Assembly (NCBI GenBank): GCA_020073085.1
Contig: JAIQFV010000025.1
Span: forward strand, 1-64,000
Origin: Terriglobia bacterium
GTDB taxonomy: Bacteria > Acidobacteriota > Terriglobia > JAIQFV01
DNA: 64,000 nt
Reading direction: 5' to 3'
Shown: positions 51,421 through 59,840 of the stretch, one piece after another
Layout: the number at the start of each line of letters is the position of its first letter
Numbering within the stretch: position 1 is the stretch's first letter
Translations under genes and position numbers: made by a program
Notes under the pieces: model-generated
The model's input: only the letters and a program-made list of their open reading frames with translations
What the model was told of the DNA's origin: nothing
Databases searched by the model: none

Positions 51421-51465
51421 TCTCTCTCTCGGCGATCGACCTTCCCTTTACTGACATTGAAGATG

Positions 51466-51895
51466 AATCCCCCCAGCGGAAGCTGGGGGATTGTGGCGGC
51501 GGAACGCTGGGGCGGGAGGTTGCATCTGAATCATTCCCCGACTCCCGTCGGGGGGATTATATGGGAAAGGGCCGGAGGCCCCAGAAGGCTGAACTTGAAC
51601 CATCCCCTCCGCCGAGGCGGACCGTCGGGGGAATTCCATTGGAGGGTGGCGGGAGGGCGCGCACCTCGGGCGCATTTAGAGGAAACACCCCCGCTTGTCC
51701 CGCTCCAGAATTCGGGAATGACTGCCGGGTGCGAGAGCCCCCTTCAAGGGGACTTGACCTTGTACAGCCCGCCGGGCGGGATGCGGCCTTCTGTGGAAAA
51801 CGGCTCGTCATGAGGCAACAGCAAATCGATCTTCACCTCCCACCCGATAGATCGGGGCACGCGCCACTGCCGTCGGGGGGATTCACATCCACGCT
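51466..51895. repeat. REP palindromes, group 2 (degenerate cluster after fumC)
   Basis: CCCCCAGCGGAAGCTGGGGG (about 51472), CCCCGACTCCCGTCGGGG (about 51537) and variants at about 51603-51636 and 51868-51883 are the same palindromes that flank the fused transposase at 58.8-59.6 kb. The linker GGCGGCGGAACGCTGG...GCATCTGAATC matches its 66-bp unit. The stretch between fumC and the macro gene contains no supportable gene. Confidence 0.75.
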
Positions 51896-58243: not shown

Positions 58244-58438
58244 TTGATCACCTCCGGTCGCACTCCAGGAAGACAACTTTGCTGTGTTACATACGTCTTT
58301 GCACCTTCAAAAAGTTAGACATCCGGAATCAACCAAAAGTTCGAATTATTAGATGCAGACGCGGAGAAAAGGTGCAAGGTCGGAATAAGAGAATCTCAGC
58401 GAGGGGGTTCGTCGAGCGCGGTGTAGGCTGGATCTGAA

Positions 58439-58745
58439 ACATCCCCCGACTCCCGTCGGGGGGATTATGGCGGCGGAAGGCTGGGTTGGCAGGCGGCATC
58501 TGAAACATCCCCCGACTGCCGTCGGGGGGATTATGGCGGCGGAAGGCTGGGTTGGTAGGCGGCATCTGAAACATCCCCCGACTCCCGTCGGGGGGATTCG
58601 GAGCAGTGCACGACCATTTCTTCTGCGTTCCAGCGTTGCGCCAAGAATCCCCCCAGCGGAAGCTGGGGGATCGTTCCTGTGCAGTCTACAAACGAGCTCG
58701 CTTTACCCACAGAGAATCCCACCGACGGCAGTCGGTGGATATTTC
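58439..58745. repeat. REP palindromes, group 2 (3' flank of the fused transposase): three 66-bp tandem units plus variants
   Basis: ATCCCCCGAC begins at 58441, 58507 and 58573, an exact 66-bp period. Each unit has the stem CCCCCGAC / GTCGGGGG around a 4-nt loop, then ATTATGGCGGCGGAAGGCTG. Variant palindromes follow at about 58646 (CCCCAGCGGAAGCTGGGG) and 58724-58745 (CCACCGACGGCAGTCGGTGG), the last ending 10 bp from the transposase stop. Confidence 0.88.
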
Positions 58746-58754
58746 AAATCCTGC

Positions 58755-59576
58755 CTACCAGCCGTTCCTCAAAAATGTCCTCATCAACGCTGTTGTGAAT
58801 TCGCCGCAGGTTCCAGCGTACGCCGAGCTTTCCCACAGTCGGTCCATCCCTGCCCTCACGAGAATCTCCGGAAAGTGTTTCGCCATGAAATACTGTCCGT
58901 TATTCATCAGCGCGAGCACGCAAGACTCCACGCTCGCCTGAGGCACAATTCTCATCAGCAGGTGTCCATGATCCGGCAGGATACTCATTTGATCAATGGC
59001 GAATCCCCGTTTTTCCGCGACCCCGAGCCAGTAGCTACCCAACTCCCGGGCAGTCGCAGCATCAAACACGGCTCTCCGAAATTGCGTCGCCAGGACCACA
59101 TGATGACTCAAGTCAAAGAAGGCATGCGCAGAACGGAGTGGTCTTCGATCCTGATTCCGGTAACGAAATACGGGTGGAAGAAGGCGGTCAGCGTATCTGT
59201 GGTGCGCTGTCTGGGCCATCAGATAGTGACGAACGGTCTCCCGGTTCACTCGCCCAGTGCTTTTCGCCAGAAATCCCCGCGCCCATACGGGAGATTCCAA
59301 TCCACACACTGAAGCCAGGTTCGTCTTGAGGGTCTGGATCACCCTTGAGATCGCTTGATCCGGACGCAAACTCACCACCAAGCGGACTTGCTTGGAACAC
59401 CATTTGGACTCAAAAAGATGATAGCCGTGCTTTTGGCAGATTTCGAGAAGGCGTGCACTGAGCCTTTCCAGCAACATTGAGGAAGTGAAAAGTGCCTTCC
59501 GACGATGAGATCGAAAACAGATGTAATAATGAAGTTGATAGGCCCAGTTCAAGGACTCATAATTTTGAATATTCAT
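58755..59576 (-). mobile_element. Fused two-domain Y1/HUH transposase (RAYT-like) with complementary half active sites
   Basis: A 273-aa protein from the ATG at 59576; upstream codons merely translate a REP unit. It contains two Y1-transposase domains. Domain 1 (about 1-150; WAYQLHYYICFRSHRRKALF) has Gln63-Val-Arg65 where the HUH histidines belong, but keeps Tyr118 and Gln122 (RHYLMAQ). Domain 2 (about 150-273; LSHHVVLATQFRRAVF) keeps the HUH motif His203-Gly-His205, but has Phe268 and Gly272 where Tyr and Gln belong. In IS200/IS605 TnpA dimers each active site joins the HUH of one subunit with the Tyr helix of the other. This chain could therefore carry one complete site. Group 2 REP arrays flank it on both sides. 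I checked both motifs on the nucleotide sequence. Confidence 0.85.
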
Positions 59577-59674
59577 GTGGAGCGACTTTCCGGGGGGAAA
59601 TGTTAAGTCAATTCTGCCATGGGCCCTGCAAAAGGGGAAGAGAATTGAGGGGGGCGCGCGGTAGGTCGTATCTG

Positions 59675-59840
59675 AAACATCCCCCGACTGCCGTCGGGGG
59701 GATTGTGGCCGCGGATCGCTCATGCGGTAGGTTGCACCTGAACGATCCCCCGACTGCCGTCGGGGGGATTATGGCGGCGGAAGGCTGGGCTGGTAGGCTG
59801 GATCTGAAACATCCCCCGACTCCCGTCGGGGGGATTGTCA
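59675..59840. repeat. REP palindromes, group 2 (5' flank of the fused transposase): three 66-bp tandem units
   Basis: Copies of (A)TCCCCCGAC lie at 59679, 59745 and 59811, again a 66-bp period and in the same orientation as the 58.4-kb array. Each palindrome is preceded by a conserved GTAGG...ATCTGAAAC-type segment. The GTAGG recalls the GTAG guide tetranucleotide next to E. coli REPs. Confidence 0.85.

Follow-up and report, generated by a model that had tools for sequence, protein, structure and literature searches.

A tandem Y1 transposase of Acidobacteriota with a predicted single composite active site shared between two fused IS200/IS605-type domains and flanked by REP-like hairpins

We describe a gene from a Terriglobia bacterium (Acidobacteriota) that likely encodes a domesticated, REP-associated single-stranded DNA nuclease/ligase, in which two IS200/IS605-type TnpA transposases, fused in tandem long ago, would form a single-chain pseudo-dimer with one composite active site. 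The gene lies on the minus strand at positions 58755..59576 of the window (the whole analyzed stretch of 64,000 nucleotides, contig JAIQFV010000025.1), starts with an ATG at 59576 and is intact to its stop codon, encoding 273 amino acids. The Pfam family Y1_Tnp matches the protein in two stretches (E = 6.7e-31). Domain 1 (D1; residues 1 to 130; 59187..59576, minus strand) exceeds the Pfam cut-off by itself (PF01797; 50.7 versus 23 bits), and domain 2 (D2; residues 148 to 273; 58758..59135, minus strand) is matched over residues 154 to 269. Against the NCBIfam model transpos_IS200, the tandem protein scores 120.8 bits (cut-off, 55); against REP_Tyr_transpos, it scores 28.2 bits, below the cut-off of 80. 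Judged by sequence, both halves are of the IS200/IS605 type (class 1), placed in a REPtron-like setting.

The catalytic residues of a Y1 transposase are divided between the two halves, as a preliminary description of this DNA had stated and as direct reading of the residues confirms. D1 is a Tyr/Gln-only Y1 domain. It carries the putative nucleophile Tyr118 (codon 59223..59225) and the putative third metal ligand Gln122 (codon 59211..59213), while its HUH is degenerate (Gln63-Val-Arg65; 59382..59390). D2 is an HUH-only Y1 domain, with an intact His203-Gly-His205 (58962..58970) and with Phe268 and Gly272 in place of the lost Tyr/Gln pair (58761..58775; from residue reading together with the family profile alignment), all of these codons being on the minus strand. 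The described correspondence of the two C-terminal helices, from G-x9-Y to G-x9-F, likewise holds, with G108 and G258 at their expected places. A profile built from eight D1s aligns with IS608 TnpA (PDB 2a6m; E = 2.3e-15) such that Y118 matches Tyr127 and Q122 matches Gln131 of VKQY-IENQ; the loop "dhlr" of D1 falls on DHIH of IS608, and the window protein has Arg where the second His would be. The D2 family profile aligns to ISDra2/IS200 TnpA and puts Phe268 at the catalytic Tyr of ISDra2, for which PDB entry 2xo6 is an engineered Y132F mutant. Structure prediction with AF2 from seven sequences gave a model with a pLDDT of 64 that is weak at both C-terminal helices, the Tyr helices being mostly under 50; its D1 matches ISDra2/IS608 TnpA with Z scores of about 11 to 12. 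A single-sequence run on a homologue gave a pLDDT of 39.

The tandem gene is single copy in its own genome. A sister genome of the same genus (Terriglobia MAG SRVP_39) holds two full-length copies, L086 and L087, with 83% and 76% identity, and further full-length relatives occur in Blastocatellia and other Acidobacteriota, including two far more distant copies in another class (24 to 27% identity). Occurrence is patchy: a strong match came from 7 of 250 genomes in the window's own class, and in four of those seven it was a single-domain TnpA. The family is known from Acidobacteriota, the phylum that deep searching covered, and a contig scan with conserved peptides returned matches from Acidobacteriota only. 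The viral contigs searched held no relatives of the tandem protein, and the plasmids searched held no full-length relative, only single-domain TnpA with 25 to 30% identity over D2. Pairs of separate genes encoding D1-like and D2-like proteins were considered and set aside; the single-domain matches that were read (among L096 to L099 and L106 to L127) are ordinary TnpA with a complete HUH and Y---Q. Genome G426 contains at least three widely differing tandem genes (L075, L076 and L077; 33 to 52% identity to that of the window). Repeats of more than one type lie near them, which gives the impression that several pairs of REP and enzyme coexist.

In an alignment of 14 full-length tandems (the window protein and 13 Acidobacteriota relatives, with identity down to 24%), Y118, Q122, H203, and H205 are kept in every sequence, while the four counterpart positions vary. 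Position 63 is His in six, Gln in three, and Ser, Asn, Asp, Arg, or Lys in one each; position 65 is Arg in ten, Gln in two, and Leu in two, but never His; position 268 is Phe in nine, Tyr in two, Val in two, and Trp in one; and position 272 is never Gln. Only 16 of 273 columns are invariant, and all four retained catalytic residues are among them. The chance of this is 8e-6 (1e-5 without near-duplicates), a figure that gauges retention and not 14 independent events, as the aligned rows share ancestry. The proposed partition into a Tyr-only and an HUH-only half is thus conserved in 14 of 14 tandems, and the random losses in both halves that had been named beforehand as evidence against it did not appear. 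The further statement that the second site was "deliberately lost" is worded more strongly than the data allow: loss is complete only at the second D1 His and the D2 Gln, both gone from all 14, whereas the first D1 His is still there in six and the D2 Tyr in two. One more asymmetric position is Lys84 of D1 (in LK; codon 59325-59327 of the window), which every one of the 14 tandems keeps and whose D2 equivalent is Asn (in NN) in nearly all D2s. The distant members L043 and L004 (G172) have long open frames upstream, lack even the first D1 His, and are flanked by other GC-rich inverted repeats.

In IS608, the active site is built in trans, with metal on His64 and His66 together with Gln131 of the other subunit, whose Tyr127 is the nucleophile (PMC5934647). 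With this precedent, D1 Tyr with D2 HUH is the expected pairing, in agreement with the earlier suggestion of a composite site as in IS200/IS605 dimers, and the conserved residue set of the tandem corresponds to precisely one IS608-type site. A single composite site split between the domains is therefore a well-supported prediction. Because neither domain holds both HUH and Tyr with Gln, a complete cis site within one domain should be impossible, and therefore one molecule would hold only one covalent DNA end. We propose that the C-terminal helix of D1 packs on D2, like helix alpha-D across the IS608 dimer, and that a metal held by His203, His205, and Gln122 activates Tyr118, which would then cut the REP as single-stranded DNA, either at its foot or at its flank, and leave a 5'-phosphotyrosine and a 3'-OH. 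The dead HUH face of D1 may still be used for hairpin binding or folding. E. coli TnpAREP appears monomeric (PMC6006769), and cleavage by TnpAREP enzymes falls at CT or CA close to the REP (PMC8266576). The tandem protein may be a comparable one-site REP nickase/ligase, derived from a dimeric IS200 lineage, in which two-ended chemistry would depend on a second molecule or on another attacking 3'-OH. For IS608 transposition, an exchange of helices between cis and trans arrangements has been proposed. We lean slightly toward regarding the tandems as a distinct ancient class of natural single-chain IS200-type TnpA heterodimers that, parallel to monomeric RAYTs, would act as trans-locked, one-site, one-ended REP nickases/ligases without such an exchange.

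The gene is surrounded by eight REP-like hairpin copies, on both sides and in both orientations. At the stop-codon end, three lie on the plus strand (58422..58466, with a GTAGG...CTGAA foot; 58488..58532; and 58554..58600) and two are inverted on the minus strand (58646..58690 and 58715..58759, the latter overlapping the stop codon of the gene); beyond its start, three more lie on the plus strand (59660..59704, 59726..59770, and 59792..59836). Compiled from 45 distinct copies in several genomes, the unit reads gTAGGyyGGAyyTGAAcN and continues into a stem of 10 bp that is closed by a TNCC loop and leaves a single base unpaired on its 3' side. Within the foot, GTAGG stands about 13 nucleotides 5' of the hairpin and yTGAA-N2 adjoins it (window 58422-59836 and loci L086 to L092); nearly half of the 45 copies have a CTGA foot, and the remainder mostly TTGA. 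The GTAGG block and yTGAA are conserved single-stranded candidates for a guide or a cleavage site. Compensatory changes back the pairing of the stem: 99.5% of cells pair, three pairs have changed on both sides, and none of 500 shuffles in a control reached the REP's value for cells changed on both sides. No known RNA family was found at the locus by Rfam. The REP is shared with related genomes in which the gene is present. A strict REP pattern occurs 9 times in the window's own genome, 35 times in the sister genome, 13 times in G426, 15 times in G395, and 9 times in G386, with none in the reversed control. It is mostly missing from genomes with only distant tandems or with none; G434, of the same family, has three strict copies without a tandem gene. 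Different hairpin repeats lie near the tandem genes on other branches (L083, L084, L095, L102, and L076).

We placed the D1s and D2s in a tree together with single-domain Y1 proteins of the same phylum (a quick search on few columns). Here 12 D1s group in one clade (SH-aLRT 99), and a second clade (99) unites all D2s with one truncated tandem that had earlier been counted as single-domain; the longest D1 branch (L102) alone floats in the tree. Because D1s and D2s fall into separate supported clades, one old fusion of two Y1 domains would be the simplest reading. Both halves are under purifying selection, with dN/dS between the window gene and its syntenic orthologue L086 of 0.20 overall, 0.26 for D1, and 0.15 for D2, D1 being the less conserved.

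Chance or decay, in which residues were lost at random from a decaying pair of transposase domains, is hardly credible. Broken copies do occur elsewhere (L042, L092, and L078), and a D1-only fragment adjoins L087. Set against this are intact copies that share the partition at identities of 24 to 83%, purifying selection, and the separate D1 and D2 clades; on the strength of the conserved partition and dN/dS, we rejected a decay or pseudogene origin for the family as a whole. Nor is it at all probable, though somewhat less remote, that the tandem is a non-cutting REP-binding protein, with a regulatory or structural role, whose Tyr and His are kept for folding. Half of each site is gone and D1 is less conserved than D2 (0.26 versus 0.15), as such a protein might lead one to expect, but whereas the other four positions vary, the nucleophile and three metal ligands of one site never do, which would be hard to explain without catalysis.

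A more serious competitor, albeit still an unlikely one, is that the tandem homodimerizes or swaps domains to give two Tyr(D1)/HUH(D2) sites. Two-ended excision and insertion of REPs or REPINs would then still be possible, and the fusion would fix only which half donates which residues. IS200-type enzymes are dimers (PMC6006769), the local REPs stand in arrays and in both orientations, and the sequence fixes no more than one site per chain. However, a pseudo-dimer interface is already provided within the tandem, and no observation requires a second one. The single-chain pseudo-dimer with one composite site is the reading that we prefer.

The tandem shares features with several known systems. 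Like IS200/IS605 TnpA (IS608 and ISDra2; class 1, Quentin et al. 2018), it has the Y1_Tnp fold and, as predicted for the tandem, a site composed of HUH and Tyr/Gln across two domains; its Y motif is Y---Q, and its repeats, like those of IS200/IS605, form imperfect hairpins whose 5' foot is single-stranded. Unlike the TnpA homodimer, it is one chain in which one of two sites is left, with Y---Q in D1 and HUH in D2 in 14 of 14 tandems, not in the same domain. Unlike mobile, often multicopy insertion sequences with end hairpins, the tandem gene is single copy, with REP arrays on both sides and no recognized IS ends. With TnpAREP/RAYT proteins (class 2; E. coli, PDB 4ER8), it has in common a REPtron-like layout, a single-copy gene, and, as predicted from its residues, one site per polypeptide; as for RAYT genes, the flanking REP family is also dispersed in the genome. 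However, RAYTs hold HUH and Y---NP in one domain whereas the tandem has Y---Q and HUH in separate ones, and RAYT REPs have GT[AG]G right at the foot of the hairpin whereas GTAGG of the tandem's REP is displaced about 13 nucleotides 5'. The initial labels of RAYT and "group 2 REP" were therefore dropped: the Y motif is Y---Q(--HH), of class 1, instead of Y---NP, and the REP belongs to a different type.

Subclass 1.2 TnpAY1 proteins, which are not IS-like, have the signature Y---Q--HH (Quentin et al. 2018, PMC6006769). As in these, D1 ends in Y-x3-Q-x2-HH in 12 of 14 tandems, that of the window included (RH replaces HH in two distant G172 copies), and copy number is low. Subclass 1.2 proteins are single-domain, with their own HUH and a C-terminal extension, whereas D1 of the tandem runs into a linker and D2. 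Y---Q--HH is also found in 21 of the 51 single-domain proteins compared, and subclass 1.2-like proteins with Y---Q--HH and a C-terminal extension (L013, L067, L069, and L073) are common in Acidobacteriota, though reported mostly from Cyanobacteria and Bacteroidetes. Class 3 TnpAY1 proteins are rare, present in Acidobacteria, and associated with REP-like hairpins with a CnGA foot, and half of the original members lack HuH or Y motifs (PMC6006769). The tandem family resembles them in its Acidobacteriota hosts and perhaps in its REP-like hairpins, which often have a CTGA foot, and compared by description only, the two may overlap. Class 3 is, however, described with Y----Q (four residues between) and with no mention of a tandem split site, whereas all 14 tandems have Y---Q. 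Equating the two was suggestive, but with this mismatch in spacing we set the tandem family apart by description. No description of a tandem or split Y1 transposase was found in the open-access literature searched. With HUH and Tyr on separate domains of one chain, the protein would be a natural counterpart of an engineered heterodimer experiment, so that a single small protein and a short oligonucleotide, in single-stranded form, would allow a direct test of whether one composite site suffices to process REP DNA and of what role the second IS200 site plays. It may also show that dimeric IS200-type transposases have given rise, by a second evolutionary path, to enzymes that are associated with REPs and hold a single site per chain.

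The sister genome carries its second tandem gene together with the D1-only fragment at L087 2334-4570. The flanks of this second copy are only 448 bp apart in the window (51430-51877), with a REP between them, a distant copy on the plus strand (51500..51558). Because dS between the paralogues (0.69) exceeds that between the orthologues (0.46), it is probable that the ancestor already had the second copy and that the window's lineage later lost it. As it stands, the interval 51430-51877 resembles the loss of a paralogous REPtron.
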